Of a DNA stretch of 64,000 nucleotides, positions 1-25,075 are shown piece by piece. The position numbers and the translations under genes were made by a program. The stretch comes from Acarospora socialis (taxonomy: Eukaryota > Ascomycota > Lecanoromycetes > Acarosporales > Acarosporaceae): the NCBI GenBank assembly GCA_025617375.2, contig JAMYGW020000002.1, positions 992,001 to 1,056,000 on the forward strand. The letters are read 5' to 3'. The notes under the pieces are model-generated. The model was not told where the DNA came from. It saw nothing but the letters and a program-made list of their open reading frames with translations, and did not search any database. Each line of letters opens with the position of its first letter. Within the stretch, counting starts at the first letter, position 1.

Positions 1-1539
1 CTGAACACTATAATTTCAGTATTTTCAGTAAATATTTTTAAATTTAAACAGTTAGTTCTAACACTCATATTCTGATCTGTTTATAAAGAAATCTTTTATT
101 AATTAAATTAAAATTAAAACACATTAATTACAAAGACAGATCAAAGTTCAGAAGAAAGAAAATTGTGTAATTTTAAAAAAGTTTATGTTAAATAAATAAT
201 TGAAGAATTCAGCAAAGTTGTTTCAATACTAATTTTTACTTCACTTAAATTAATATATTGTTGCAGATTGAATCTGAAGACATTATGAGCAAGTTTAAAA
301 AAATATAAATTAATAATTTTACATTGATTATCAAGCATCAAAAATACATAATTAATTTGTGTAAAGAAAAGTTCTTGAAGACAGTCAAAAATAAGAATTC
401 AAAGAAGATAATGAGAAGATTTTGATTGCAGATTGAGAATTTAAAACACATTAAGTATAAAGAGTATGAGTAAGAATCAAACACATATCATATTGTTTAA
501 ATACATTTTTTTAAGACATCAAATCTCAGTATCAACAAAACTGATATATTTATAATTATGTTCTGTTATTTGCTGTAAAACAAAGAAATAAAAATAGAAA
601 AAGTATCAATGTAAAATTGCAAATTCATGTAAAGTTAAGTGATGATGAACAGTTTGACAGTACAATCTCAATAAACAATTTTCTTGTTAAGTTTTCAACA
701 GATACTTCTGAAATTGAAGAATTTTAATTTTTAATTTTAAGTTTTAACAGTGAAGATAAATATCAGAAAAATAATTTCAATGAAGATGAAATTGTTAAAA
801 ATAATGTGAATACAAAAGCAAATAAAAAGATTGAGATTAGAATTTAATTGAAGAAAGTGTGAAAATGAGAAGATGAAAGAAGCTGATATTGATGATTATG
901 CAAGAAAGAACTAATAATTGACTTAAAGAGTTAACTCAATAAAATGTTACATTTCATTGATCAGTAATACTGTAATCAGCTTGATTGATTTAATGTTTAT
1001 AGTGTTGAAAATAATTATTAAAATACTATCACTCTGATCAAATTATATGATAATTTGATTAAATAATTATTCTGTAATATTTATATTTATATTTTAAGAT
1101 ATTATGATTTCACAGAGCTCAATATCATATAAAGAAGAAACTGAATTAAATTAATAACTTAGTGAGTTTAGTGAAAGCTGAAGTTTCATGTATAACAGTA
1201 TTATTTAATCTTTTTACACAACAATTTTATTTACATGTCTAATTCAATCTTCAAAAGCAAAATTCTTATATTATGATTCAGACATCAGTGAAGAATTTTA
1301 AAATTAATGTAAGACAATATATTAAGCTGTTAAACATCTATCTAAAATTAATTGAAAGAAATTACTTCTGTAAAATAATGTTATATAAATTTTTAAAGTA
1401 TAATTCATCTTAAATCAGTTATCTCTATTATTAATAAAGAACTTAAGATGTTCTGCAAAAGATGTGAAATTTTGATGATATATTTTATTATAATAAATGA
1501 AGAAATTAGTTTGATGAAAAGACATCTGAATTGTAAAAC
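1..1539. other. AT-rich sequence, nothing recognised
   Basis: All six frames are broken by dense stops and no protein family is recognisable. It may be the 5' part of the hAT remnant that follows, but I see no terminal repeat to prove it. Confidence 0.5.
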
Positions 1540-2620
1540 ATGTTAAAGTGTGCAGCAGTTGTGAGATAAAAAGCAAAATGATTTAATCTCAGTATTTGAT
1601 AAACAAATCAGTCAATTACTTTATTTTTTTAATGCTGATTTTTAACATTCATATTATTAGAGTTCTGTCACAATCTTTACAAAAATATTATTATTTATAG
1701 TTAAAGCATTTAAATAATAACTATTTACAATCTGTCTTATACTTAACTGATCTTTTTAATCAGTAGAATATTTTTATTTCAAAAAACTTATTGAGATGCT
1801 TCATTCAGATACAAAGATTTCTGATTGCATAAAGATTGAAAATCTTTTGAAGAAACAATATAAAAAAGTGTGTATATTTGTTTTTGAAGAACTTGAATCT
1901 CATATTAAAGTTTTCATAATTTTGAACTATTGAATCAGTTCAAATAATCTTGCTTTTATGAAAATTACTGAGTATTTTATCAATAAAAACTGAAATTATC
2001 AGAAAGTTCTTCTTAACTTCAAAGAACTAGAAAAAGTACTGTCAGAGAATAAAAAGTATTTATTTATCATTATTATCTCAGACAATAATAATGCATCTAA
2101 TGAGTGTTTAAGCAATTTTTATGAGAAAAAGATGCATAAAGTGTTAAAAAAAGATATTGAAATGAGTTTTAACTTAAAAAATCTTGATTTGTTCAATACA
2201 AATATTAATGCTGTTATTATACAGTTATCATCAGCTGTTTAATCAATTAACTTCAAATTTTTTGTTATCACAACAGTCACAAATACTACTTAATTCACTA
2301 TTTCAAATTCTATCACTACTGTTTCAATATTTACAAATTAATTGTTTCTTAAATTATTATGAAGATCTATTTTTCTTTAAACATACTTATTAATACTGAA
2401 CATATTGTAAAATTAGCTGCTAAGTCTGATTAAATTAATAACAATATTTTAAAAACTCAAAGTAATGCAATATAGTTCTTAAAGTGAGTTAGACAAAGAT
2501 AGTGACTTTGATGAATTATAAGTTAAAAAATAATCTTGTTTGTGAACAGAATTTTAATGATTATTTTTAAAGCATGTGATATAATCATGAACTCATGATA
2601 AAATTGTGTCATCTTTGAAT
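1540..2620 (+). pseudogene. hAT transposase remnant (copy 1)
   Basis: Conceptual translation with stops gives a recognisable fungal hAT transposase core. The first part resembles the helical segment before the catalytic region (around 1790-1900, reading KKLIEMLHSDTKISDC). It is followed at about 1934-2035 by SNNLAFMKITEYFINKN, then a TGA where the family has Trp, then NYQKVLLNFKELE, and at about 2075-2100 ISDNNNASNECL, matching the family's 'TDNASNN' segment. Acidic residues and Trp positions are altered by C-to-T/G-to-A changes. The element is dead. Its ends are not defined, although a subterminal-type hairpin lies just downstream (2662-2750). Confidence 0.7.
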
Positions 2621-2661
2621 TTATTTAGAGTGATCATCAAACTGAGTCAAGCTCAGATTTT

Positions 2662-2750
2662 AAAACTCAGCTCAGCTCATCAGACTTAACTTTGCAATCT
2701 AATTTAACTTTAAACAAAGTCAAATTTCAGACAGAGCTGAGCTGAGTTTT
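2662..2750. repeat. Inverted repeat, 17-bp arms
   Basis: The arms 2662-2678 (reads aaaactcagctcagctc) and 2734-2750 are perfect reverse complements separated by 55 bp. Similar CTCAG/CTGAG words recur at about 7519-7600 next to another hAT remnant. The position just beyond a hAT core suggests a transposon end with subterminal repeats, but this is inference. Confidence 0.5.
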
Positions 2751-2779
2751 TCTTAACAGCTCAAACTAAATTAAATTTA

Positions 2780-5700
2780 ATTAGTATATGATAACTAAGC
2801 AGAATTTGATTGATAGATGTTACTAATGCAAAACTATTTGATGATAGTTTCACAAAGCACTTTTTGTTTGACTATGTGTTTGCAGCATATTTTGTGAGCA
2901 TTATATGTGAACATTATAAACTATTCATTACATCACATATTTAATACAGAGTTAAAGTACATTAATTAATAAAAAATTCATTTTCTTAATAGAGCTAAAA
3001 AGTATAAAACATCATTTTTGTCTTTCACAACTCTGCTGTCATAATCAAATTCTTTTTTTTATGTAGCATCACAACTATATAACATATAAGTCATAGAAGA
3101 GAGATTTTGATATGTGAGAATTTATACTTTTAAAATAAATACAAAAAAATGCTTCACTTATCTTCTGTAGACTTGTGATTACTGATTGATGTTATTTTAA
3201 ATTTTAATTATACTGAGTAATTATTTCTTTAATCAGAAGAGAGAATGCTGCTTGATTAATCTTAAAAAAGTGCAGTTCTTGTCAATATTGTCACTGCTAT
3301 ATAACAGAATTTTGTCAAAGAATATTAAAATTGAGCATAATAATATAATATGATTGCAGAAACTATATAACTCATTAGATTTTTTTCTTGCAGCAATTGA
3401 TTTAAATAAAAAAAAATTATTAAGAGTTCAGTTATCTTCTTAAAAGATGCTACATTTAATTGTAACTTCTTTACTCTTTAGTTATGATGTTATTTCTGTA
3501 TTATATATTTTCATCTTTTTTTTAAAGACAGTTCTCATCAAAGATTTCTTCTTAATTTCTTTGATCATCTCTGTTATCAGCTTGACTTTCTTTCTTGACT
3601 TTAATTTTTATTTTAATGTTATAATGCTAAATACATAACTTGAATATCAGTTTCTCTACTTTCATAATGTCTATATTAGAAAATAAAATTGATATTAATG
3701 TGATCTCTTTTACTACACTTTACAAACAGTACATAACATGTCTTAAAATCAAGTATGTAGTTGTCTGAGATAAAATGATCATGAGATAAACTTTTTAAAT
3801 AATTGTGTAGTTTGTTTTGAAGTTATTTACAGATTCACTCACAACAAACAACAATATTCATGTAAACAAATCATACTATGAGTACTTAATTAAATTTACT
3901 TTTTCACTTTCACAAAACTTCTGATCTTTTCTTTCTGAATTTTCAGTTCTTTATAGATTTTTTTTTCAAACTATTATATAGTCATCAATGTACTTGTGTT
4001 TTTTTTATGACACAACAATATAACATTATCAGATCAAGAGATTGAAGAAAGTTATCAGATATCACTTAAATATACTTAAAAGAGCTTAATCAGTTATCAT
4101 ATAAGTGAAGTTAATTATGAAGAGATAAAATGCTGAATTTCATTCTAAAAATACATTATCAGAATAGTGCAGAAAGAATGCTAAGATTATTTCTGTAAAT
4201 GTAGCAAAATTATAAACATCAAACTTATTTAACACAATGTTGAACACATCTATTCTTAAAAGAATTCACTTTATCAATATATTAAACTTATCATCTCAAT
4301 TTAACAAGAAGAAGATGAAGAAACAGATTGACAAAACTAATATATTCATATTATTTCAACTCAACAAGAAGAAGAAAAAGAAACAGATCAATGAAATTAA
4401 TATATTTATCTCAGACATTGTTGCACATCTGAAAAAAGAAAACTTTGCTGATCAATGAGAAAGAATAAAAGCATCTATCAATTATTCTGAAACAACATTC
4501 AATATTATATTTTTTAAAAATACTTTAGATATACTCAGCAGCTCTTTTACTGTGAAATTTTGTAAGTAACTTCTATGATTATAACACTCAATTATAATGC
4601 ACAAAGAGTGTACTAAATCAGAGACTAAATTATATTCAAGAATTGAGAAACTCTTCATTTCTTTTTAAATCAAGTTCTTCATTATCTAATACAACTTAAA
4701 AAATCACACTATCACAATTTTCAGTAGTTAATGTCTTCAGAGATGATGAAATAAAAGAAATTCATAATGAAGACAGCAAAGTACTGAATATAATAAATCA
4801 GAATTTTAAACATAATTCAGACTATAAAAAGCTCAAAGATGCTGTTTAAAAGATAAAGTATACAGTTAAGATTAAAGAGAAAATTGTGACTCAAAGATAT
4901 GCAGAGAGTGAATATGATGAATATTAATATACTATTTTAGTTTTATACAGTCTCTAACTTAATATATAACAATCTTTTTCATGAATCAGAATGCAATAGC
5001 TTAATAAAAGAAGAAAAATGACACTGTTAAGTACAGTAACTTCATCATACAAGTTAAAGAAATTCAAGTTCTACATAAGCTTCTTAAAGTAAAGAGTTCT
5101 TCTACAGTCTTTAATAAAGAAATATATCTTATCTGTTTGAATTTTAAACTGTACTGATGTGATTAAATTGCAAAAGTTCATCAAAATATTCAAGATCACT
5201 GAACAAAATCTTTACATACAGTAGTTAAACATCAAGAGTGAATCATTCAGTTCTATAATTATAAAGAGTTTATTGCTGCAGAAGACAAGAACTTAAATTT
5301 TATTATATAAGTTTTCAATAATATTGTACTTGATTCAGAACACATAACTAATAATAAAAATCATCAGTATGTATTTTAATTTTAATATTCATTTATAATG
5401 TTTCTCAAAACAGAAACTGATGCTGTTTCATTCTTTAAAAATTAACTATCAGTGATTTTCAATACTTCTGTAGATGAGAATGCAGAAGTGAAAGTAATGT
5501 TGAGTGAAAATAAAAAAATAACTACAGTAGTTGTTTCTGAGTGAATTGTGCTGAATAAAAATATTGATGATGAATGCATCTTTTTTAAGCTCAGTGAAGT
5601 TGCACTAACAAACATTAAGAAAACAGTTTTAGAAAAAAACAAGATATATCAATTCTGTGCTGTTTTAGTATTAAAACTCTCACTAAACAAATGAACTTCA

Positions 5701-5837
5701 CAAATTACATCTTTAAAGTCAAAAAGTGAGAAGATTGATGTACACAATGATCAGATATGTTTATATTGCTTAATTATAATGTTTTTACAATTATCTATCA
5801 AGTTCTTACTAATTTAATGTATCTATAGATTAAGACA
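2780..5837. other. AT-rich sequence, no identified gene
   Basis: Only short Lys/Asn/Ile-rich frames are present. One frame over about 5440-5650 is open on the + strand sense, but no family is recognised. The stretch probably derives from transposon sequence. Confidence 0.5.
4300..4426 (+). repeat. Two-copy 63-bp tandem repeat
   Basis: A segment beginning aacaagaagaagatgaag at 4301 recurs at 4364 with several substitutions, giving two Lys-rich peptide units of the form NKKKxKKQI. It lies within a short open frame (4237-4458) of unknown origin. Confidence 0.6.
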
Positions 5838-7497
5838 GAATTTAAAATTCAATCATCAATAAAACAGACTCTGTTCACTGCAGATAATGCTGATGAAAAA
5901 ATAAAAGTTTCAGAAATAAAAGAAAACATACAGAATGATGATGAGAAAGAGAAGAAGAAAGATCATTATAATGATGATAAGAATGAAAATAATGAAAATG
6001 TGAAACTAGACTGAACTATGATGTACTGAGTGAAGATTAAAGACTTTGAAAATTATTGTTGTTGATGTGTAAGCAAGTTTAAGTCTAATATTTTACTCAA
6101 AGTTAGTTTCATAAGTGTATTTTTTCTTTTTGTATGTACAATACTGTGAATTTGAAATGTAATTGTTGTTCACTATAAAAAACTCAACAACATTACTCTT
6201 TTAAGAATTGCAGAGTATAAAAATATATTTACATATATGTGTATGACTTAATCTGTCAAACATAAAAAGTATGAAGTCATGAGTTAATTTAAAGAATGCA
6301 GCAAAAATGAAAGTTGTGACAAGACTGTGTAAAATAGTAAATATAGAAATGAGATCACTGCAAATTTATGAAAACACTGTGCATGTATTTTGTTTAAAAT
6401 TCACAATAATTTCATGATGTGCTCAACAACAAAACTCTTTGTTTGTAATGTTGCTTCACACTTTAGAAAAAAATGAGACAAGAGTTTACTGAGAGTAATG
6501 TCACTTAAATTTATAAACATTAACATTATCTTCAGATGAAAATGAATATATTTTTTTTGATTTTAAAAAATTACTGATGTGACTGATATGTGAAAGATTA
6601 AGTGTTTTGTATGATCTTAATATTGAAGCAGTAATGATCTTAAAATGTAGTGTCTGTACTTTTGTCTGTAAAAGTGATGTTTTTGATAGTTGTTTACTTC
6701 ATTTATAAAGAAGACTTCTGTCTCTTGACTGATGTGATGTTGTATTTAAAATTGTATATATAATGACAGTAAAAATACTCTGAACAAAGTTGTTTTAATT
6801 AATGTTTTGAATAACAGAACTGATAATAGTAAAATCATTGAAGATAAAGTTAATAATTGAGACATTAATTGCTGCAAATAACATATTCAATAAAGAAGTT
6901 CTGTGCTCTTTTTCTGAACTGATATTTATTGATTTATGACTATAGTTGTTGTTGAAGATTGTATGTCTTGATGTTGCATGATTTGTGATATTTATAATGC
7001 TTAAATATATCACTTCAGTGTTTAGATTTTAATTTTAATCACTGTTGTAAAGTTTAAAGTCAATGTTTTCATCTTAATCACTGTTGAAAAGTCTGAAGTT
7101 ATTGTTGTTTTCTTAATTACTATCATCATAAAAATCATCATCAATGAAGAGTTAATTCAATAGCAGCTTTATATGAAATTTAATTACTTTTCAATCTAGT
7201 TCATCTGCTGAAAATTTCTATTCATTATTGTTGACAATTATTGTTAATGCAGATCTCTTCTCAAGATTCTTTATTAATTCTGCTGTAAATGTGAATATAT
7301 TATGATATTTAGTCAGCATAATTTTCTCAATGATTTCTGAATTTAGTTGATTTCAACAATATATGATGACATCTCAAATCATATTGAATAAACATTCAAC
7401 ATCAACATCTACTGCAGAAATCACAAGTATATTCTTTGCAAATTGAATTATCACTGATTTCAACTTCTTTATCAGCTTTCAGTACTTAAGAATTTAA
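5838..7497 (-). repeat. Large inverted repeat, left arm
   Basis: This arm is the reverse complement of 13,937-15,596. Coordinates map as x to about 21,434 minus x. Identity is very high over about 6000-7050, where a 72-codon frame (6795-7013) encodes a peptide identical to that at 14421-14639, and lower near 7200-7497. The inner part encodes the C-terminal dimerisation domain of a hAT transposase. The arm ends abruptly at about 7497, whereas the right copy continues upstream into the rest of the transposase. Confidence 0.85.
7150..7497 (-). pseudogene. hAT transposase C-terminal fragment (copy 3)
   Basis: Read on the minus strand, this segment gives the hAT C-terminal dimerisation motif: tyrosine/Lys-rich start, FAKNILVISAVD, then VECLFNM, followed by the residues that precede the end of fungal hAT transposases. 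The same domain appears in the right arm with about one difference per ten bases. The N-terminal three quarters of the transposase are missing here. Confidence 0.7.
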
Positions 7498-8195
7498 AGT
7501 AATCATCAAGCTAAGTTAATTCTGACTGACCTGAATCAAGCTTCTGAGCTGAGCTGAACTGAATTGAGTTTTTGAGTCTGAAAATCTGAATTGAGTTTGA
7601 TTTAAAAGTCTGACTTGATCTGAACATTTAATCTGAATTTTAATGATTATAATTATAATTAGTAAGTGAACTCATGAATTAGAATTCAAGAGTTTAAATT
7701 GAAAGAGTGTGATACATGAGCATTATAAGTGAGTATTATATTGTGAACAAAGATATTGCTTTCATTTTAAAATTACTATTTATCACATCAAGAAGACAGT
7801 ATTTCTGAAGTAATTTTAATCACTTTTACTTCAATTTACATCTTTTGATGCAATATTTCAGTTATGCATATATCTCTTGATAAGAATCATGTTCTTTTGC
7901 TGAATAATAATTCACTTTGTGTAAATTGCAGCAAGATTAACATCTGAACAAATTAGTTTATAGTTTCTTAACAGTGTGTTCAACATACTTTCAAAAAAGA
8001 CAACAACATATACTTCTGCAGCTTCTTGCAGACTTTTTATGACTGAGATTTGAAATTAAAAGCTTTTGTCATAATATCAAATCTTTATTGAATAGTTCTG
8101 AGTGATTTTTCAACACAGTCACTGAAAGAAAACTTTTTTCATTAAGAAATCAGTTAATCTCTGATAGCAACATATTTCATGAAGAATAACAGCTA
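7498..8195. other. AT-rich spacer with CTGAG/CTCAG words
   Basis: No coding signal was seen. About 7519-7625 is rich in gctgagctgaa/gaattgagttt words resembling those at 2662-2750. The rest is featureless AT-rich sequence. Confidence 0.4.
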
Positions 8196-8845
8196 TAGAG
8201 TAGAATTGAGTGTTAAAATTGAGTGTTAAAATTGAGTGTTGAAATTAAGAGTTAGAATTAAGCAATAAAATTAAGCAATATCATAAGAATCATCATCAAG
8301 CACCAGAACAAAGCATCAAGACAGAGCATCAAAACTGAGCACTGAAACTGAGTGATAAAATTGAACAATAAAATTGAATGATATTATGAGCACTGAAACA
8401 AAGCACACAAAACTGAGCTTCAAAATTGAGCATTAAAATATAGCATCAAAACTGAGCACTGAAACTGAGTGATAAAATTGAACAATAAAATTGATTGATA
8501 TTATGAGCACTGAAACAAAGCACAAAACTGAGCTTCAAAATTGAGCATTAAAATATAGCATCAAAACTGAGCATCAAAACTGAGCATCAAAATTGAGCAT
8601 CAAATCTGAGCATAAAAACTGAGCAACAAAATAAAGCATCAAAACTGAACAACAAGATTGAGCATCAAAACAAAACATCAAAATAAAGCATCAAAATAAA
8701 GCATCAAAATTGAGTATCAAAACTGAGCATCAAGATTGAGCATCAAAATGAAGCATCAAAACAAAGTATCAAAATGAAGCATCAAAACAAAGCATCAAAA
8801 CTGAGCATCAAAATTGAGTAATAAAATTGAACAATAAAATTAAGT
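8196..8845 (+). repeat. 13-bp minisatellite array (unit gagcatcaaaact)
   Basis: About 50 degenerate units of 13 bp follow the consensus gagcatcaaaact. Part of it (about 8324-8555) is organised as a higher-order repeat of about 117 bp, i.e. nine units, present twice. Mutations in units are mostly C/T and G/A changes. The array has the reverse orientation of the one at 9430-10,110. Confidence 0.85.
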
Positions 8846-9429
8846 TTACTGTCTGACTTTCAGCAGTGAGCTGATCTAAATTTTATAGTGACTGTCTGAG
8901 TTTCTTCATCTTTATCTGTATTTACAGCAGTATTTGTTTCAATCTTCACTCATATCTCAGCAGTATTGTCTCTCATATTTTCTTCACTTTTTTTTTTTTT
9001 CTTTTCTTCACTGTGAGTTTTCTCACTCTTATGAATCTTTTCAGCACTCAGTGTCTTCTTTTCATTCAGTATCATCTTTGTAGCACTGCATTTTGTTGAA
9101 GATTTCTTGTTACATTTCATGATGTGAGATGACAATTTGATGAAGTTTTAAAATTGAGTTAATAGAAATGTTATAAGAGATCAATATAAAGATAAAAATA
9201 TCTTTAAATGACTATGAGTTCTAATGTATGCAGAAGACTGAGTTGATGAGAAAGTTATAATTTGAAGTTCATTGTTGAGAGATGTTATTAAGATGTTAAA
9301 AAGACTGAGATATTATGCTAGTAAATATCAGATTTACTTATGATATGTGTGTTAATGTTATGATGTTAGTAAATATCATATTCATTCATGATATGTGCAT
9401 CAATATTATGAGTAAATATATCAACACAT
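8846..9429. other. Spacer between opposed minisatellite arrays
   Basis: It contains a polypyrimidine tract (cttttttttttttcttttcttc, about 8987-9009) inside a Lys/Ser/Glu-rich minus-strand frame (8950-9135) of unknown origin. No other feature was seen. Confidence 0.4.
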
Positions 9430-10110
9430 CTATCTCTAACACTCAGTTCTTATGTTTACTTTCATTGCTCAGTCTCTATGTTCAATTTCTATACTCAGTT
9501 TCTATATTCAGTCTCTATGCTCAGTCTCTATGCTCAGTTTCTATGCTCAGTTTTTACACTCAGTTTCTACACTCAGTCTCTATGCTTAATATCTACATTC
9601 AGTAAGTCTATTATTTTGCTTTAATGCTTCATTTCATTACTTCATTTTGATACTTCATTTCAGTGCTTTGTTCTGATGCTTAATTTTGATGTTTTGTTTT
9701 GATGCTCAATTTATTGCTCATTTATATTGCTCAGTTTTGATGTTTTATCTCAATGCTTTGTTTCATTACTCAGTTTTAATGCTCAATTTTGATGATTTGT
9801 TCTGATTCTTAATTTTGATGTCTTGTTTCAGTGCTTAATATATTACTTACTTTTATCACTCTGTTTTTATGTTTCATTTTATTACTCAGTTTTAATACTT
9901 AATTTTGATGCTTCATTCTGATGTTTTGTTCTGATACTTTATCTTGATGCTTTGTCTTGATACTTTGTTTTGATGCTTCATTTTGATACTTCATTTTGAT
10001 ATTCAATTTTAATGCTTTGTTTTGATGTTTTGTTCTGATGTTTTGTGACAATGCTTAATTTTGATGCTTGATTTCATTGCTCATTTTATTACTCAATAAT
10101 AACACTTATT
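9430..10110 (-). repeat. 13-bp minisatellite array, opposite orientation
   Basis: Units of 13 bp of the form gctcagtttctat (about 9465-9605) and ttttgatgctcag/ttttgatgcttcg (about 9640-10,100). The latter are reverse complements of the unit in the array at 8196-8845. The two arrays therefore face each other across about 580 bp. The order of the variants suggests one ancestral array broken and inverted, or two arrays in the arms of an older palindrome. Confidence 0.85.
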
Positions 10111-11858
10111 TATAGTTTTCAAAGCTAACTTTACATTCTAGACTCTCACAATGACAAAATTCTCAAACACTAAACTTTCACTTCTCTCTATCAAACAACT
10201 TGTCTCTATTTTGTCAACAGATTTGAAAGATATTTCAAATGTTGACTTTAATTGTTATGATTGTTCTCACAAGTTGTTATATGATTCAAAGAAAACATTT
10301 AATGAATACTCAAACAACTTAAAGACTGTACAAACACAGAAAAAACATCAGAAATTTATGAAGAATGAAGACTTCAGATAAATTAAACATACAAAGATGA
10401 TAAATTACAGAGTTGTGAAATGAAAGAGAGACATCATGAAGAAATTAAAAGAATATAAAACTGCAGATTCTGCTGTACAGAAAATCATAAAAGAGAAGAT
10501 GAAGAAAAAAGTCTTGAAGAAACAATATAATTCTGAAATATCTGATAGATTTCAAGAATTATAATGTTTTGTTATAATACTTCTAACTATCTGCAGCTGT
10601 ATATTATGAAGATAAATTTAGAACTTGTTTGATGAAGCAGAAAAATCAAGCTTGAATTGATAAGAAGACTGAGAAAAAAAGATTATTTGCTGATGCTTTG
10701 ACACTAAAAGAGAAGTATGAGTTTAAAAAATTACAGCAAGAAATATGCTCTATATCAGAGTTTTATAGTTTCTCTGACTTTCTTTAAAATGTTGACAAAA
10801 ATGTCATCATCAATAAAAAATACAGCAATATCAATCAGCAGATTGACAAGTGTCTTGCTGTTATGATAAAACATCAAAAAAAAAATCATTGATCTCACAG
10901 AAGAGCAGAAGCTACATAATGCTGAGAACTTTGATTCTGCAAAGACAATGTATCTTTTTTGTAGTAATGTTCTTGATCTTGAGCATATTGCTGATTATGA
11001 TCATTCATGAATATTATATTGCTCAGTTATAACACTTTGTACTTTTAACAGTGACTAAATACATTTAAGAGTTCATAGTTGATCAAGAAGAAAAGAAGAA
11101 AAAGAGTGTTGTTGAAAATTTTGATAAAGTTTGTATGATGAAGTTTGAAGATGAAAAGTTCTTGAATGATGATTTAATTGATGAGTTTATTATTGATGAA
11201 ACAATTGCTGATGTGAAAAATGATGAGAAGAAGAAAGATAAAGCTGAAAATGATGAAGATGATGAGAGTATCACAAATGAAAACAGTGATGAGAAGAAAA
11301 ATAAATAGTAAAGTAATACACAGTTTTGTGATGACTAAAGCTGTAAAATAGTAAGAGAATAATCAGAGATGTTTAATAAATTATTTATTGTATATTCTTG
11401 ATGATCAATTATCTGATTATGAATATGAATTGTTAATAATAAGTTATTTCTCTTTGAAATATTGTGTCTAATATTATCACATGACATAGTATGAAGTTGT
11501 AGTATAGAATTTTACATTAAATTATCTATTTCAATAAACAATTATTGTTAACTCAATAACATGTTATACAGAGTAACTTTCTCATTAATTAAATATATAT
11601 AAATTATATGAGTTCTGTCTTTTACTTGTGTAAATTTTGAGATTACATAACTACATTCATATAAAAAAAAACTTACTGAGTCTCACAACACTCTTTATAT
11701 CTTACTATTGTTATATTACAACAAAACATCATCTACTCAATCAGCTTACTCTGAGAAATCATTATTATATCTTTATACAGTTCTTTCTTCAGTTAATTGA
11801 CAAGTGACTTAGAAAGTTCTTTTATAAGTGTTTTCATTAATAAAGTTCAATCATCTCA
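10111..11858. other. AT-rich sequence with short unidentified frames
   Basis: Short + frames at 10151-10381 and 10850-11032 and an acidic Asp/Glu/Lys-rich frame near 11,040-11,310 could be pieces of one decayed protein; none shows a motif I recognise. It sits directly upstream of the longest hAT remnant and may belong to it or to another element. Confidence 0.4.
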
Positions 11859-14230: not shown

Positions 14231-15596
14231 TAAATTAAATTAAAAAGCAATTAAATTTTGTACAGAGCTTCTATTGAATCAGCTTTTCATTAATAATAAT
14301 TTTTATGATGACAGTGATTAAAAGAACAACAATAACTTTAGACTTTTTCACAGTGATTAAGATGAAAACATTGACTTTAAACTTTACAACAATGATTAAA
14401 ATTAAAATTTAAACACTGAAGTGATATATTTGAGCATTATAAATATCACAAATCATGCAACATCAAGACATACAATCTTCAACAACAACTATAGTCATAA
14501 ATCAATAAATATCAGTTCAGAAAAAGAGCACAGAACTTCTTTATTGAATATGTTATTTGCAGCAATTAATGTCTCAATTATTAACTTTATCTTCAATGAT
14601 TTTACTATTATCAGTTCTGTTATTCAAAACATTAATTAAAACAACTTTGTTCAGAGTATTTTTACTGTCATTATATATACAATTTTAAATACAACATCAC
14701 ATCAGTCAAGAGACAGAAGTCTTCTTTATAAATGAAGTAAACAACTATCAAAAACATCACTTTTACAGACAAAAGTACAGACACTGCATTTTAAGATCAT
14801 TACTGCTTCAATATTAAGATTATACAAAACACTTAATCTTTCACATATCAGTCACATCAGTAATTTTTTAAAATCAAAAAAAATATATTCATTTTCATCT
14901 GAAGATAATGTTGATGTTTATAAATTTAAGTGATATTACTCTCAGTAAACTCTTGTCTCATTTTTTTCTAAAGTGTGAAGCAACATTACAAACAAAGAGT
15001 TTTGTTGTTGAGCACATCATGAAATTATTGTGAATTTTAAACAAAATACATGCACAGTGTTTTCATAAATTTGCAGTGATCTCATATCTATATTTACTAT
15101 TTTACACAGTCTTGTCACAACTTTCATTTTTGCTGCATTCTTTAAATTAACTCATGACTTCATACTTTTTATGTTTGACAGATTAAGTCATACACATATA
15201 TGTAAATATACTTTCATACTTTGCAATTCTTAAAAGAGTAATGTTGTTGAGTTGTTTATAATGAACAACAATTACATTTCAAATCAACAGTATTGTACAT
15301 ACAAAAAGAAAAAATACACTTATGAAACTAACTTTAAGTAAAGTATCAGACTTAAACTTGCTTACACATCAACAATAATGATCTTCAAAGTCTTTGATCT
15401 TCACTCAAAACATCATAGTTCAGTTTAATTTCACACTTTCATTACTCTCATTCTTATCATCATTATGATGATCTTTTTTCTTTTTTTTTTCATCATCATT
15501 CTGTATATTTTTTTTCATTTCTGAAATTTTTATCTTTTCATTAACATCATTTGCAGTGAACAGAGTCTGTTCTGTTGATAATTGAATTTTAAATTC
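13937..15596 (+). repeat. Large inverted repeat, right arm
   Basis: It pairs with 5838-7497 in opposite orientation. It contains the hAT C-terminal domain, about 1.3 kb of downstream sequence, and the 72-codon frame 14421-14639 whose peptide is identical in both arms. The distal end stops four bases before the Copia 5' LTR (15,600), so the LTR element inserted at, or truncated, this arm. Confidence 0.85.
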
Positions 15597-15599
15597 TGT

Positions 15600-15807
15600 T
15601 GTTAAGAAGTGCAGTGTTTTAGCTGCTTTCATAGTTTTAGTTGAAACTAGTGTCAGAAACTACTCATTACTCATATAATCTGTGTGACAAAGCATGTGAA
15701 TTGACAATCTTTACAATTCACATTGATCACAATCAAATCAATGATGTATATTTCACTAGATAGACAGTTAGTCAGCAGTATAGCATGAGTATTCTTTTTA
15801 TCTTTCA
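15600..15807 (+). repeat. Copia 5' LTR
   Basis: It begins tgttaagaagtgcagtg and ends ctttca (possibly extended to caata). About 208 bp. Similar to the sequences at 20,860, 22,929 and 23,803. Confidence 0.8.
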
Positions 15808-16199
15808 ATAAATTCAATAAATTATGAGTTCAAGTTAGCAAAAAGCTTTTCAGAGAAAGTACATACTGTTCTAATATCTTAATAGCTTAATACAGAGACT
15901 CAAAGATTAAGTAAAACAAATATTATCAATCATTGATACAGAGCTTTAAAATTGAGCAAAACAACATTTTTGACAACTTAATACAAGATTAAAACAAACA
16001 CTCTTGACTGTCAATACAGAGCTTAAAGATTGAGCAAAATGACATTCTCAGCACTTAATATGAAGCTCTAAGATTGAGCAAAACAAGACTTACTGACAAC
16101 TTGATACAGTGCTCAATGATTAAATAAACAAGCACACATGCTTTTTCTTTCTCTTATTTACATTATCTTCTTTCATATATCTTAATACTTCATTTTATT

Positions 16200-17330
16200 C
16201 ATTTCTTACACTACATACTGACTGTCATCAAAAGCTACATTATGAATTTCAACAACTTTTTCATGAAGTAATAACTCATCTCAATTCTCAGTTGCAAGAA
16301 ATGCAATCAATGATTTACTTTTATAAGAAGATGACTGATAAATGAAGATCTGTAATATATTGTTGAGATCTCAGCAGTTAATACTTTTATTAGTGACTTT
16401 TTCTTTTTACTCAGTAATTTTGATTTTGAAAGTCAGAAGTTTGACACAAAGATTTTATACTGACTCAACATTTACATTAATGCAGATGATTAAAAGTACA
16501 TTACAAATAAAATTAATGCAAAGAATGCTTAAAATATCTTGAAGTTCAAATACAAGAAAAAGTTGCAGATCACTGAAAAACAATATTTAACAGAGTTTAT
16601 TGAATACAGAATGTTAACAAATGTGTTTATTAATGAAATATAAATATATCTCAGCAAGCTGAACAGAAAAATTGCTGCAACTCAGTTTGATATAACTGAT
16701 CTATTCAAGTCTGAGTAACAATTTCAGATACTTCTTCAAGCATTATTTAAGAACTACACAATGATTTACAACACAATTAACATTCAAAACATCTCAAACA
16801 TCAAAAAAAGTCTGCAGAAGCTTCAAGAGAAGAAAATACAATTAAAGACTGTTGAGACTATTTTGTAAACAGATTAATGCAAAGAGAAACACTCAACATA
16901 CTTATATCAACATGATGTGAAATATCATTATTGAAGATTGTCAAGCTTCAATAATGATCATTTTTCTCAGCATAAATCAGTCAAATATCTTCTCTACTGT
17001 AATTCTCATCACATTTAAAACTGTGAATATCTTTCTGCTGCTTGTAAGAACATTAAGTTAAGAAAGTTATTTGTTTTAATTGTGATTAAGTCAGTTAAAA
17101 AGTTAGACAAGTTGTCTGCAGACAATTTACATCATAAAGATAAGATAAAATTCAAGAACAAAAACAGAAAGCATAGAGTTTTTGATGCTGAGACTGAAAA
17201 AAACAATAACTCATTCTTATCTGAGTCTGATGCAGAGAAAAACAATAAGATTGTTACTTTATTTAAGAAAGCTGTCAGTAAGATACTCAGCTCTGAATAA
17301 ATTATGAATTCTGAATATTTTATACACATA
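16200..17330 (+). pseudogene. Copia gag-like region
   Basis: Interrupted frames between the LTR and the integrase, including the Lys/Asp-rich frame 17082-17300. A Cys/His-spaced segment near 16,975-17,055 is consistent with a damaged CCHC knuckle. Assignment rests mainly on position within the element. Confidence 0.55.
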
Positions 17331-20300
17331 ACTGATCAATATTAACTCTTTAATGACTCTTTAATATGTATATGATGTTGAAGAATTAAAGTTGAAGAAA
17401 AACACTTATACTCTCACTACTATAAAGTAATTATGATGCAAGACAAATTCAAAAACTTTGTAAAAATAAATTTAACACTTTATATGTCTGAACTAGAAGT
17501 TAATCTTCTATCAGAAAAGTAAATATGCAAAATGAAATTGTAGAAAAGTTTTAATCAGCACAGTCTTTACATGCAGAATAAACATGACAATGTCATAATA
17601 GAAGTGTCTGAGCAGAACAGTGTCTACATAATTAAATACATTGCAAAAAAACTGAACAAGTTCATTCTATTATCTGTCATATATGTATTATTCAATTCAG
17701 AGATGACTCTTTTAGTCACAGTACTGAATGTGAACCTTTAGACACAAATTAACTCATTAAACTCTGCTGACACTTCATTTTCTGCTGACATTTCATTTTT
17801 AAATGAAAAGATCAAGATCTACAAGCTGTAACACTAACAGCTTGTTCATCTTGACTCTGCAAAGCTTTGCAATCTTTATAAAGTTATGATTCTTGAGAAA
17901 TCAATTTTCATTGTTGAAGACAAGAAGAACATATGTAAAATTTGTGTCATCATCAAATTTGTCAATCAGCAAAAGTACACTGTAAGTGAACAGAAGATCA
18001 ACATTCTTGTTTTAATTTTCATTAACATATGCAGTTTCTTATCTCTATCATTTACTGAACATCAGTACTTTCTGAAGATTGTGAACAACTATTTTTGAAA
18101 GATATAAATAATATTGCTGAAGTGATGTGATAATGCTTCACAAAAACTGTAAGAATAATGATTAAAGATTGAGCTTCAGATCAATATGAAAGTGCTTGCT
18201 GTATAAAGTGACAATATCACAAAGTTAAAATCAACTTTGAATGATTGATGCAGATTCTTTGACATTACACTGCAGTATATTGTGTTTTACATGTTTATTC
18301 AGAATAATGTTGCTGAAAAAGTCATTTATATCACTGAGAATTCAGTGTACATCATAATTAAAAACACAGAACTTTCAATAAAGTTCTGAATAAAGATAGC
18401 ACAAATAAATGTTTATCTTTGCAACTGAACAGCAATTAATTTTTTGATTAATAACAGACAAATAACTTTAAAAAAGATCTTCATCAATGTGCAGTCATTC
18501 ATTGATTACATTTATGTCTGAAATTGCAAATACTACTTCTATATTGACTTCAAGTCATTGCTGAAGAGCAGACAGAATAAGTTTATGAATTAAGAATGAG
18601 TAAAAATCTTCATGAATTATACAGATAAAATCATAAAGCAGTATCTGTTTTAAGTCTCAGATCTTAAGTAGATCATCAAGAGTTATGCTGTGAAGTTTGT
18701 TGAGAATGAGAAAAAAAACAGTGTTAATCTTAAACTACAAAGATAAACACTAAACATTTTGTCTGAACAAAAATCAGTTGAATAATCACAAAAAAATATA
18801 GTCATCACAGATTTTACAGCATCTACAACTCTGTCTACTGTCTCTGAACAGATTTACAAACTTAAATTTAAGAGTTCAGACAACAAAAAAGAATTTAAAT
18901 TAACTGCAGATAATCTCAACACATTTTCATTAGACATTCATATGATGAATAAATTAATCATAATCAACTCAAACAAATCACAGACAAGTGAACAGAGTGA
19001 GATTAAGCAGTTTTTACATATTGAAGTTTCTGTCAGCAAAGCATCAAATATTTTAACTGAGAAAGTCAAGACATTCTTGTGCATTGAGATTTTGAAGAGA
19101 AAATAAAACAGTGATAATAAAGACTTTAATGAGTTTATGATTAAGATATCATGAACTATGTTGATGTTCACAACATTTATTATAAATAATGAGAAAGATA
19201 CTGAGAACATTAAATCTGATATTTTTATGTTTGTCATCTATATTAAAGCAGTGAGAGACTCAGTCTGAAGAAAGATGTAAAAAAATGCTATTTATGCAAA
19301 ATTATCAGTTCTGACAGTCAACAGAACATAAAAAAAGATGATATCATCAAAGAATGCAAATATAATGATCAGCAAGTAAATATTCAAACTTAAACTGAAC
19401 AGTGATAAATTTCTGAACAAATTTAAGACAAAAGTTATGACAAGAGATTTTTCACAGATGTATAACATTGATTATGAAAACATCTTTACATTTACAGTCA
19501 AGTTCAACACTCTTTGAGTTTTTCTTGTCATCATTGTTCTTGAGAATCTTAAATGTCATCAAGTAAATATCAACAACATCTTCACAAAATTCTTTTTTAA
19601 AAAGATCATCTATATGACAGTTTTTTCTAAAGTTCAAATTGCATTTAACTGTGCACTATGTATACTGTATAGTCTTTATGATCTGAAGTAAATTGTGTAA
19701 AATTGACATAAATGATGTGTCATTGATCTGTGCAAACTAAACTTTCATTAAAATAATGTTAATTCATGTTTTTTCATCAACAGCATCAAAAGAATCATGC
19801 TGCTTCTCTATGTAAACAATATAATTGTGATCTCAGTAAATCTGATACATGTTCTTTGATTTAAGAAAGTTTTTGTGAAGATGTTCAAAGTTAAGAATTT
19901 AAGAAAGACACAGAAAATTCTTAACATACAAGTCACATGTAACTGCAAAAGAAGAACTCTATGTTTAGATCAGACTCACTATGTAAATAAAATGCTGAGA
20001 AATCTTCATATGCAGTTTGATAAGCATAAGATCATGACAATTTTACTTAATGAATATGATGCTTTTTATCTCATCAATTCAGTTAATCAAAGAATAGATT
20101 AAAGACAGTATTAACATGCAATTAAAAGTTTGATATACACAGCAATTCATACTTAACTGAACATCATCTTTGTTCTAAATCAATTAAATCAGTATTTTAG
20201 TGATTTCACAGAGCATCATAAATATGTGTTTAAGAAACTGCTGCAATATGTGAAATCAATTATTAATTTTTATATTGTGTATAAATTCAGTAAAAGTCAA

Positions 20301-20859
20301 GTCATACTTAAATACTCTGACTCTGACTATGCATCAAACAAATAAGATTGAAAGTCAATTCTGAAATATGTGTACATGCTTGAAAATAAATCAGTATTAT
20401 CAACAAGTTAAAAGCAAAAGTCTGTTGTCATTTTAATTACAGAGACTGAATACATAATTATGTCAATATATGTAAAGATTGAGATCTGACTTACACAGAT
20501 GCTGTAAGACATGAATATAAATAAGTATCTTGAAGACAATTCATATCATGTGAACATCAAAAAGAATAAAGCTCATTAAGCAGTTTTATTTCTTTAACTC
20601 AAAAAAGACAATCAGACTGTTTTGATTCTGATTAAGAATGCACATGTGTATAAACAATTAAAACATATTAATATTGTCTATCATCATATCTGTGATCTGC
20701 ACAAGCAAAATCAGATTGATGTGAACTTTGTGTTCAGTCAAGACATGATGATTGATGAATTAATTAAGTTTTTATTTAAATGAATCTTTAAGTGCTTTGT
20801 TGAACAACTGAAACTTGCTGTTAATGAAAGTCAATAGATGTAACATCATTAAGTAAGAA

Positions 20860-21070
20860 TATTGAGAAGTGCAGTGTTCTAGCTGCTTTCATAGTCTTAG
20901 TTAAAACTAATGTTAAAAATTACTCATTATTCATATAGTCTGTGTGACAGAGCATGAGAATAGACAATCTTTACAATTTACATTGATCACTGTCAAGTTA
21001 ACAGTGTATGTTTCACTAGATAAACAATTAGTCAACAGTATAGCATAAGTATTTGTTTATCTTTCAATAT
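20860..21070 (+). repeat. Copia 3' LTR
   Basis: About 85-90% identical by eye to 15,600-15,807: agaagtgcagtgttctagctg near the start and tttatctttcaata at the end. Its 5' dinucleotide is mutated (TA instead of TG). Confidence 0.75.
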
Positions 21071-21545
21071 ATTTAAACTAAAACTAAATACTGATGAATT
21101 TCTGAACAAATTTAAAACAAAAGTTATAGTGAGAAAATTTTTTCAGATGTATAACATTGATTATGAGAACATCTTTGTTTTTACAGTTAAGTTTGATACT
21201 TTTTAAATCTTTTTAATTATTATTGCACTCAAGAACTTGAAGTGTCATTAAATAAATGTCAATAATATTTTCATGAAATTCTTTCTCAAAGAAATCATCT
21301 ACATAACAACTTCTCTTAAAGTCAAAGTTACATTTGAATTGTGCATTGCACATACTGCACAGTCTTTATGATCTTAAGTAAATCACATGAAATTAACATA
21401 AATAATGTGTTGATGAGCTAAAGAAACTAAACTTTCATTAAAATAATGTAAACTCTTATTTTCTTATTCACAGCATTAAAAGAATCATGCTGCTTCTTTA
21501 TGTAAATGATATTATTTTGATTTCAGTAAATTTATCATACATTTT

Positions 21546-21720
21546 TGTTGAAAATGAAACATTTTTATTACTTAATATTAAATGTCTTAATTATCTAGAA
21601 GACTAAAATACACAAAGAATAACTTTTATACATAATGACTAAGTGATATCATGTGACACAGAAGATTTCAACACTAGATTAGATAGAGTTGAACTTCTAA
21701 AAAGTCTTTTAATTTCAATA
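21546..21720. mobile_element. Nested 175-bp solo-LTR-like insertion
   Basis: It is absent from the paralogous position of the first Copia copy (about 19,845). It starts TGTTGAAA and ends TTTCAATA (one C-to-T from a perfect inverted TTTCAACA end). It is flanked by the 5-bp direct repeat ATTTT (21,541-21,545 and 21,721-21,725). These are the hallmarks of LTR integration by a family different from the host element. Confidence 0.65.
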
Positions 21721-22275
21721 ATTTTTTAATTTAAGTAAGTTCTTCCTGAGATGTTTAAAGTTAAGAACTTAAGAAAAAAACTGAAAATTTTTGACATTCA
21801 GATTACACATAACTGCAAGAGAAAAATATTGTATTTGAATCAAATTCATTATGTAAATAAGATGTTAAAAAATCTTCATATATAATTTAATAAGTACAGA
21901 GTCATTTCAATTCTGCTCAATAAATATAACACTTTTTGTTCTGCTAATTCAGCTAATTAAAAAATAGATTAAAGACAGTATTAGTAAGCAATAAAAAAAA
22001 TCTAATATATGCAACAATTTATATATGATCAGATATCATCTTTATTTTAAATTAATTAAGTTAATATTTTAATGATTCAGCAAAACATCATGAACATATA
22101 CTTAAGAAACTGCTACAATATGTTAAATTAATTATTAATTTGATATAGTATATAAATTTAATAAAAGTCAAGTTATACTTAAATACTCTGACTCAAACTA
22201 CATATTAAACAAGTAAAATTGAAAATTAATTTTAAAATACATTTACATATTTGAAAATAAATCAATTTTTTGAAT

Positions 22276-22454
22276 AAGTCAAAAATAGAGTGATCACACA
22301 GATCAGTATTAATCAGTGTATTATCTGTAATAAAAAAATAAACTACATAGATTATATGTAATTTACCATTTTCTGGTTGTTCTAAACATAAAATCAAAGT
22401 GTGTAATTTATTGTCTCAAAATGATTTAGCTTCAGGTCAAACAAGTCAAAAATA
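22276..22454. mobile_element. Nested insertion flanked by 12-bp direct repeats
   Basis: Compared with the first Copia copy (about 20,395-20,420), this copy has extra sequence flanked by aagtcaaaaata at 22,276-22,287 and 22,443-22,454. It holds several of the few surviving CC/GG dinucleotides of the whole block (near 22,365, 22,375, 22,434), so it may be younger than, or have escaped, the mutation process. No family was recognised. Confidence 0.5.
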
Positions 22455-22928
22455 CTGACTTATGCAGTTACACTAGTTAAAAACAGAAGTCTGTTGTTAT
22501 TTTAATTACTGAGACTAAGTATATCATAATGTTAATATGTATAAAGACTAATATTTAACTTATTTAAATGCTGAGAAATATGAACATGAACAAGTATCTT
22601 GACAATAATTCATACTGTGTAAACATCAAAAAAAATAAAATTCATCAAGCTGTTTTATTTTTCAGCTCAAGAAAAACAATTAAGTTGCTTTAACTTTGAT
22701 TAAGAATACATATGTGTATGAGTGATTAAAGTATATAAATGTTGTTTATCATTATATTTAAAACTTACACAAAAGAAATCAGATTCAGATAGACTTTGTG
22801 TTCAGTTAAAATATGATGATCTGTGAATTAATTAAGTTTTTGTCTCAATAAATTTTTGAGTGCTTTATTAATCAGTTGAAACTTACTGTCAATGAAAGTC
22901 AATAGATGCAGCATCATTAAGTGAAAGT

Positions 22929-23155
22929 ATTAAGAAGTGTGATGTTTTAACTGTAATCATTGTTTTAGTTAGAATTAATGTCAAAGAATTGTCAATATTC
23001 ATATACTCTGTGAAGCAAAGTGTGTATACTGATAATTTATACAATTTATGTTGATTACAGTCAAGATAATTGATTCATATTGACTGCAGTCAACTTCAAT
23101 AATGTATATTTCACTAAATAGACAGTATAACATGAGTATTCTTTTATCTCTTAAC
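22929..23155 (+). repeat. Copia LTR (third copy)
   Basis: More diverged than the others, with a small internal duplication around 23,055-23,100. It ends the truncated element. Confidence 0.65.
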
Positions 23156-23802
23156 AATTATAAACATATTAGTATTGTATAAATAAGTTTAAATAAAAAA
23201 ATATTTACACATCAGCAAAATATCTGACTTTTTATCAGTTGAAATCATCAACTCTTAATGTGTTGATTTGCAGTATTTATTTTATAGTAAGAATAATCTA
23301 TCAAATCAACATCAAACTATATTATATAATACAGTATTGTTATATGCACAAAGCATGAAGTGAAAGAAGAATGATATTTTCTAAGTTATGAAGTCAGCTA
23401 GATATAAATGAGAAGTAAGCTTTATAGCAAGATAAATTATGATGTAACATCAGTGACAGCAAGATAAGAAAAACATACTTATTAAAAAGCATGTTGAGTA
23501 AATCTGTAACAAACATTATGTGTATTTTAGCATATAAAGTTGTTTTCTTTTCATGATTAAATTATAAAATTTATGAATGAAATTTAACTGTTTTAATTAT
23601 CTTTAGATATTTATATATCACACTGACTTTTGTATGATTTGAAATGTCAATATAGATTTATAAAATATATTAAGAAAATGTATCTATTTAACATAGATTT
23701 GAAATCTTTATATACTCAACTTATTATAATCATCAATTAATTAAATATAATTAAAATCTGAAATAATGTATTTGTTATGACAATATTGCAAATTATTTAT
23801 AT
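23156..23802. other. AT-rich sequence, nothing recognised
   Basis: It lies between two LTRs. No coding signal or repeat was identified. Confidence 0.4.
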
Positions 23803-24012
23803 TGTTAAGAAGTGCAATGTTCTAGCTGCTTTCATAGTCTTAGTTGAAACTAATGTCAGAAGTTACTCATTACTCATATAGTCTGTATGATAAAGTATGT
23901 GAACAGACAATCTTTACAATTTATGTTGACTATGATAAAGTTAACAGTGTACATTTTACTAAATAGACAGTTAGTCAGCAGTATAGCACAAGTATTCTTT
24001 TATCTATCAAAA
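23803..24012 (+). repeat. Solo Copia LTR
   Basis: It begins tgttaagaagtgcaatg and is very similar to 15,600-15,807. No internal element sequence follows or precedes it directly. If the end is taken at 24,012 it is flanked by TATAT on both sides (23,798-23,802 and 24,013-24,017), a plausible 5-bp target-site duplication. Confidence 0.7.
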
Positions 24013-25075
24013 TATATGATAATAATGATTTTTTAAATTGAGCTCTTAGATTATAGAAAAGAAATAATCTCTGTTATTATATTAATTATTGAAAACAAAA
24101 ATATGTATAATATATAATTTAAATATAGTATCTTGTGACAAGATATTCTTTTATATGAAAGTATGTGTACAGTATGTTTTTTTTATAATCATTAATAATC
24201 TCTATATTTAGTTCTTTAAAAACTATTCTTATCAGATTTTCATCTATTTCTGCTCAAATAAAAACAGAAACTTTTTGAATTAATTTCAATCTTTTGCATA
24301 ATTATGTAAGATCTATAAATTTTAAATTATATTCTTCTTGTTTCACAATATATAGAATAGTTTTATCATTAATGTGAAAAACAAAGAAAAAAACAGTCAC
24401 ATAAAAAACAAATTAAGAAGAATCATTTATTTTAATTCTTTTCAATATCTATTAATCTTTGAATCATCAACAAATTATATAATTGTTACACACAATATTG
24501 TAATATTTCTTGAGTAGCTGAGAGATTTTTTGTATGATGTGATTTTTTTGAAAAAGCTTAATAATTTAGTTCTTATAAGAGATAAAATCAATAATATATC
24601 TATCATCTTTCATTTTGATGACTTCATACAATAATGTTTGATTATTGAATATAGTATAATGATAATAATTTGTGTGTACATATATTAGTGCAGTTTTATA
24701 AGTGATGATTCAACATAAAACATAAAATTCTAATTATAACTCAACATTTTTCAGAGTTTTATATCATATAACATATCTCTATTACTAAAATATACTTAGT
24801 GAAACTGTGTTGTACAATATCATTTATTTATAAAAACTATATATATATTATGCAATTCACATCAACAGATTCAGTGATATAATAATAACACATAAATTAT
24901 GCAGTACTGCATCTTCTAGAATCTGAGTTTAAATTTTAACTAAATCATTTAAAAAACAGTGAGTACAAGTTTCACATTGTGAAACTTGTACTTGCTGTTC
25001 TTGATTTTATTATTTTGTTGTATGTTATGAAGTTCAGAAAATTTTTCTTGATTGTTCTTTAGTCAGTCTTAGTTG
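24013..25075. other. AT-rich edge of the transposon block
   Basis: No gene was seen. It carries a perfect 14-bp stem hairpin at 24,962-24,992, about 80 bp before the composition switch. Confidence 0.5.
24962..24992. repeat. Perfect palindrome, 14-bp arms and 3-nt loop
   Basis: The left arm agtacaagtttcac and right arm gtgaaacttgtact are exact reverse complements around att. In a mutated block a flawless 28-bp pairing is notable. It could be a transposon end, a transcription stop or a regulatory site. Confidence 0.8.

Follow-up and report, generated by a model that had tools for sequence, protein, structure and literature searches.

In the genome of Acarospora socialis (Ascomycota; Lecanoromycetes; assembly GCA_025617375.2, 31.1 Mb in 38 contigs), a 64,000-nucleotide stretch of contig JAMYGW020000002.1 (C2:992,001–1,056,000; hereafter the window, with contigs abbreviated as C) opens on an AT-rich block, positions 1–25,075, in which a C is hardly ever followed by G or C. 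Repeat-induced point mutation (RIP) has CpA as its preferred target in most described cases, and the locus raises the question of what kind of process removes CpG and CpC from repeated DNA and leaves CpA in place. An original prediction, made from the letters of the window, had offered two interpretations, namely that a mutating process attacks C when G or C follows, or that ordinary RIP has here reached another saturation end-point. Here we report that the mutated context is CpS (S = G or C), which copy alignments establish well. Judged from sequence comparisons, the probable cause is a RIP-type, repeat-directed mutator that would convert C to T before G or C on both strands, with CpA and CpT as minor targets.

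A block depleted of CpG and CpC

The block contained no CG, five CC and two GG dinucleotides, compared with 393, 383 and 402 expected from its base composition, and its GC content was 0.250. The flank (25,076–64,000), which is unmutated and genic, has a GC content of 0.49 and a CG observed/expected ratio of 0.86, and contained 2,034 CG, 2,129 CC and 2,211 GG. CA (n = 1,811) and TG (n = 1,710) reached observed/expected ratios of 1.50 and 1.49 in the block and 1.17 and 1.15 in the flank; the block's ratios for CT, AG and TA were 1.15, 1.18 and 0.72. The prediction that CG, CC and GG are almost gone while CA/TG and CT/AG stay plentiful was thus borne out, with CA/TG at 1.5 times expectation. The seven surviving CC/GG sites lie at 7,530, 8,303, 17,735 and 21,745 and, within 22,366–22,436, at 22,366, 22,375 and 22,435. 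After the GG at 22,435, no CC, GG or CG occurred until 25,076, where normal density began directly, so that the right edge is exact. Leftward, the block filled all of the 50 kb read (C2:942,001–992,000) and is therefore part of a longer one.

When the flank was saturated at CpS in silico and 30% of the remaining C was also removed (the best fit among the 0, 15 and 30% tried), its GC content fell to 0.243 and its ratios became 1.49 (CA), 1.50 (TG), 1.16 (CT) and 0.76 (TA), close to those of the block. Saturation at CpA yielded the opposite, with CA/TG at 0 and CpG at 1.72 times expectation. The near-absence of Gly, Pro and Trp codons, also foreseen, is a mechanical result of the missing GG and CC. 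The usual RIP indices, applied with their customary cut-offs, flagged none of the 25 one-kb windows of the block; because the target context is reversed relative to the CpA rule, these formulas miss it.

Context of the changes in copies of a pogo-type transposon

Copies of the window's own start (bases 1–2000; 17 genome matches including itself, 76–100% identical) were unusable for polarising changes, being saturated and too diverged: 28 pairs held 19,379 transversion cells; their alignment, of 66% identity, may extend into unrelated flanks. A pogo-type transposon has an intact copy on C5 (1,813 bp, with a 565-aa frame) and 22 matching pieces in the genome, five of them terminal repeats only. 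Four copies, on C7, C4, C1 and C2, were tabulated at or near full length against the C5 reference. Two shorter transposase matches were also aligned; one belonged to the C7 copy, and the second, at 49–50%, was too diverged for use.

The fresh, unsaturated C7 copy differed from C5 at 112 positions, of which 106 were C-to-T and six were others, three of these being apparent CpC hits in the C5 copy itself. It had lost 41 of 57 CpG dyads (72%) and 61 of 220 CpC (28%) but only 3 of 274 CpA (1%) and 1 of 260 CpT, and its converted and unconverted sites formed a mosaic. The more heavily mutated C4 copy showed 308 differences, comprising 305 C-to-T and three T-to-C but neither transversions nor gaps; both strands were affected in an interleaved manner (140 C>T and 165 G>A). 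Its losses amounted to 56/57 CpG dyads, 177/220 CpC, 30/274 CpA (11%) and 38/260 CpT (15%). With CpG counted on both strands, CpS sites were lost 41-fold more often per site than CpW sites (W = A or T) in C7 (p = 9e-42) and 5.6-fold more often in C4 (p = 3e-70). The absence of transversions among so many C-to-T changes in C4 suggests that mutation of this copy took place in a single episode or a small number of them, and its record is burst-like.

These data decide between the two interpretations in favour of the first, since a copy far from saturation has already lost CpG and CpC with CpA nearly untouched, and a different end-point of ordinary RIP does not account for it. The wording that mutation occurs "not at CpA" is slightly too strong, given the CpA and CpT losses in C4 and the fit of the block's ratios to CpS saturation plus removal of about 30% of the remaining C; CpA is a minor target. 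In the older C1 copy (74% identical), which also carries 37 T-to-C changes and 60 transversions, the order of contexts was kept (CpG 52/57, CpC 168/218, CpA 69/273, CpT 82/260).

The C4 copy also showed self-blocking at CpC. Sites followed at +2 by A or T were lost in 146 of 156 cases, compared with 31 of 64 when +2 was C or G. Once the downstream C has been converted, the upstream C stands before T and escapes, as expected if +1 must still be C or G at the time of the hit. The base at −1 barely affected the outcome, 72–90% of CpC being lost with any −1 base.

Reverse-transcriptase relics and LINE copies

Among 17 near-identical fragments of a long interspersed nuclear element (LINE), C-to-T cells (sites in brackets) numbered 112 (40) at CpC, 13 (4) at CpG, 12 (132) at CpA and 12 (92) at CpT, with 44 cells holding other changes. 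As in the pogo copies, CpA was not the preferred context when C-to-T changes were sorted by 3′ neighbour. By codon logic, CpA-type RIP yields TAA and TAG stops and CpS-type mutation yields TGA stops. In the 150 listed of 151 RVT_1 reverse-transcriptase (RT) matches (435 candidates, 150 scored; 17 matches read as DNA), in-frame stops comprised 418 TGA (84%), 60 TAA and 21 TAG.

Conserved transposase and RT Trp positions had been predicted to read TGA, and outside the window this held in part. In the saturated C4 pogo relic, 11 of 12 aligned Trp were stops, but six of these were TGA, four TAA and one TAG; none of 29 aligned Gly was kept. The window's block itself yielded a single weak relic, a Ty1/copia-type RT at 19,752–20,099 on the forward strand with TGA read as a residue (RVT_2, E = 1.6e-6; 28.4 bits where the curated cut-off is 31.6), the only one found in the nine frames scanned, so that support for the Trp prediction comes from outside the window. 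Reading TGA as a residue throughout the block gave a longest frame of 199 aa, compared with a mean of 155 and a maximum of 230 under a Markov model; as this is no longer than chance, it provides no coding evidence in the window.

Three LINE copies (L034 on C1, L036 on C14 and L040 on C1; 3 of the 17 were computed), presumably Tad-like, have an open frame, and their CpG stands at 0.04–0.13 of expectation. It is as if this family persisted by having shed the target sites of the mutator.

Extent in the genome

Twenty-one AT-rich pieces, from the window's block and eight other places, were chosen because they, or a neighbouring stretch, match the first 2 kb of the window, with L021 after 3,000, L024 before 8,100, L030 after 7,000 and L027 after 5,000 excluded (the last stretch is CpG-free with 22 CC/GG). 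Together they made up 201,975 bases and contained 6 CG, 65 CC and 61 GG. Of 20 genome samples of 600 bases, three were free of CpS throughout and 17 were not; as the coordinates were round numbers chosen by hand on contigs C1–C6 only, the resulting 15% is a rough guide (95% interval, 3–38%). Six of the seven block edges read showed a transition within about 300 bp. The mutated elements examined were dispersed repeats (17 matches for the window start, 22 pieces for pogo), repeat status being established for these elements and not for every base of the blocks.

All six CG and 27 of the 126 CC/GG in these pieces sit in one 289-bp hAT-like miniature inverted-repeat transposable element (MITE) at L023 977–1265 (C4:1,584,727–1,585,015), which has 11-bp terminal inverted repeats and an 8-bp target duplication. 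The MITE looks like a later insert into a saturated block. It has ten genome matches, and both copies read (2 of the 10, on C4 and C7) keep 6 CG and 24–27 CC/GG. Between these two, C-to-T differences numbered four at CpG, none at CpC, one at CpA and one at CpT, with six reverse transitions and two transversions; three of the six CpG dyads differed. Repeats shorter than about 400 bp escape RIP, and the unsaturated state of the MITE copies is compatible with a length threshold of this kind without proving one.

Cytosine methyltransferase genes

The PF00145 profile matched three genes in the genome over its cut-off, and the suggested search for RID-, DIM-2- or Masc1-type methyltransferases was thereby answered. 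A DIM-2 orthologue lies in L009 (C3:855,595–856,770), matching PDB 9bap (presumably Neurospora DIM2, judging by length and residues) with E = 1e-191; its BAH and RFD matches were below their cut-offs. A RID/Masc1-like gene at C2:1,420,221–1,421,136 carries PF00145 in two exons with one apparent intron and an SPPCQ motif, and no BAH match was found in the 665 aa read. The third, at C8:614,409, is DNMT5/Rad8-like. The RID and DNMT5 labels are provisional assignments made from characteristic motifs.

Residue N1170 of Neurospora DIM2 touches the +1 flank (PMC11315935). Of the nine DNA-contact residues taken from that paper, and with chain numbering taken as residue + 2, six are kept in the Acarospora DIM-2 (R1145, T1164, T1166, T1167, D1173 and R1175) and three differ (K1143, T1144 and N1170). 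The N1170 position is Arg, which may bear on the change of context and is a lead rather than a test.

Alternative explanations

If silenced repeats were methylated at CpG and CpC and these cytosines simply deaminated over time, no burst would be needed; the methyltransferase genes agree with this, as do the ordinary mutations that saturated copies also carry, such as the transversions of the window-start repeat. Such slow decay would also have left other changes in the C4 pogo copy, which has only three reverse transitions besides its 305 C-to-T in 1.8 kb, and it sits poorly with the MITE that keeps its CpS sites within a saturated block, though that insert may just be young. Its methyl-CpG form, methylation induced premeiotically (MIP) followed by deamination, would be slow, mixed and confined to CpG, whereas CpC is lost here as well and C4 lacks transversions. 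We regard slow decay as unlikely. A cytidine deaminase of the AID/APOBEC type acting on transposon DNA would, as deaminases do, produce nearly pure C-to-T on both strands; the target preference of these enzymes is set by the 5′ neighbour, whereas the pattern seen here depends on the 3′ neighbour, with the 5′ base hardly mattering for CpC, which makes this source quite improbable. Still less credible is a sequencing artefact in which methylated CpG and CpC were miscalled as T. The pattern does sit in repeats, which fungi tend to methylate, but the C7 copy is a mosaic, the MITE inside its block is unconverted, and self-blocking at CCG and CCC suggests that the +1 base had really changed. Classical CpA-type RIP that merely looks different at saturation could draw on the RID-like and DIM-2 genes, but it is contradicted by the context preference of the unsaturated C7 copy and by a simulated end-point opposite to the block, and we assign it practically no probability.

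Several findings nevertheless weigh against the CpS-directed, RIP-type mutator that we favour. RIP usually hits both partners, whereas the intact C5 pogo copy coexists with mutated ones. Only 15 of the 32 stops in the C4 relic are TGA, with 12 TAA and five TAG; this mixture, and the four TAA among the 11 stops derived from Trp, imply that CpA changed there too, and one RT match has four TAA and no TGA. The remaining edge, that of L021 (about 3100–4300), is graded, with CpS rising over about 1 kb. The C2 pogo piece (1,197 bp, 88%) is a mild objection or is uninformative: its bias was only about two-fold (CpG 18/70, CpC 26/141, CpA 17/184, CpT 16/175), and this weak bias, together with 28 T-to-C changes and 39 transversions, indicates that it diverged mostly by other routes.

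Comparison with known systems and a proposed mechanism

The pattern resembles the RID/DIM-2-dependent RIP of Neurospora crassa in its both-strand C-to-T changes in dispersed repeats, its AT-rich blocks with mostly sharp edges, and the presence of RID-like and DIM-2 genes. Changes were nearly pure C:G to T:A (305/308 in C4 and 106/112 in C7), and a presumed RID/Masc1-type gene lies on C2. It differs in the preferred target: Neurospora RIP acts at CpA (PMC12543289) and shows a relatively high level at CpT (PMC5555474), whereas here CpG and CpC come first and CpA losses (3/274 and 30/274 in C7 and C4) fall far below those at CpC (61/220 and 177/220). CpA, CpT and CpG signatures of RIP have been described (PMC4352252). 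CpG is a strong target, as it is here, in RIP-like mutation of the Aspergillus MATE element, Microbotryum, Tuber, Coccidioides and Rhizoctonia (PMC2621366, PMC4352252, PMC4014442), but those cases, as far as the available parts go, show CpG alone or with CpA, whereas here its partner is CpC and CpA is spared. In R. solani, CpC is the commonest context of single-nucleotide polymorphisms, given with no rate per available site (PMC4014442). RIP in Botrytis, Magnaporthe and Anisogramma targets CpA and CpT (PMC4352252, PMC10998396); there too the +1 base defines two preferred contexts, and our case is the mirror image, with G or C in place of A or T. Repeats of Monacrosporium haptotylum likewise show no decrease in CpA, read as a different dinucleotide preference whose favoured context is not named in the available part (PMC3828140), but the usual RIP indices are positive there and negative here. 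A 2025 survey of 1,239 fungi describes RIP-like defences as sharing a CpA preference (PMC12543289). No RIP that prefers CpC and spares CpA was found in the available parts of these papers or of PMC11969663, PMC12542154, PMC7882544, PMC7296669, PMC3248453, PMC3017866 and PMC9907504; the broad older survey of Clutterbuck (2011) lies outside this set, and an earlier report is possible.

In the mechanism that we propose, a RID/Masc1-type enzyme, with DIM-2 acting on older heterochromatic copies, would mark or deaminate cytosines; homology may be the trigger, and the action may precede meiosis. CpG would be attacked first and CpC next, with CpA and CpT as minor targets, and the main action would stop once no CpS remained. 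Exhaustion of CpS would turn TGG and CGA into TGA stops, remove Gly, Pro and Trp codons, and make the blocks AT-rich with abundant CA/TG. Physically, the enzyme might distinguish G:C pairs from A:T pairs at +1, through guanine contacts or pair stiffness, and would be indifferent to which strand carries the +1 G. We see an even chance that +1 is indeed read as strong (G:C or C:G) versus weak (A:T), by a target-recognition loop of RID or DIM-2 that has switched from W to S.

Other features of the window

A 43-base near-palindrome at 24,956–24,998, about 80 bases inside the right edge of the block, is perhaps the end of an element. Rfam detected a single tRNA in the window, located in the flank, and nothing in four other loci.

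Implications

The A. socialis block represents a saturated case whose preference is opposite to the CpA preference described in the 2025 survey (PMC12543289). Since the standard indices flagged none of its 25 windows, similar fungi may have been scored as lacking RIP. The change of context would offer a natural specificity switch for mapping which part of RID or DIM-2 recognises the +1 base, a question left open by the available part of the DIM2 structure paper (PMC11315935). CpS targeting further predicts which codons transposons must avoid in order to survive.

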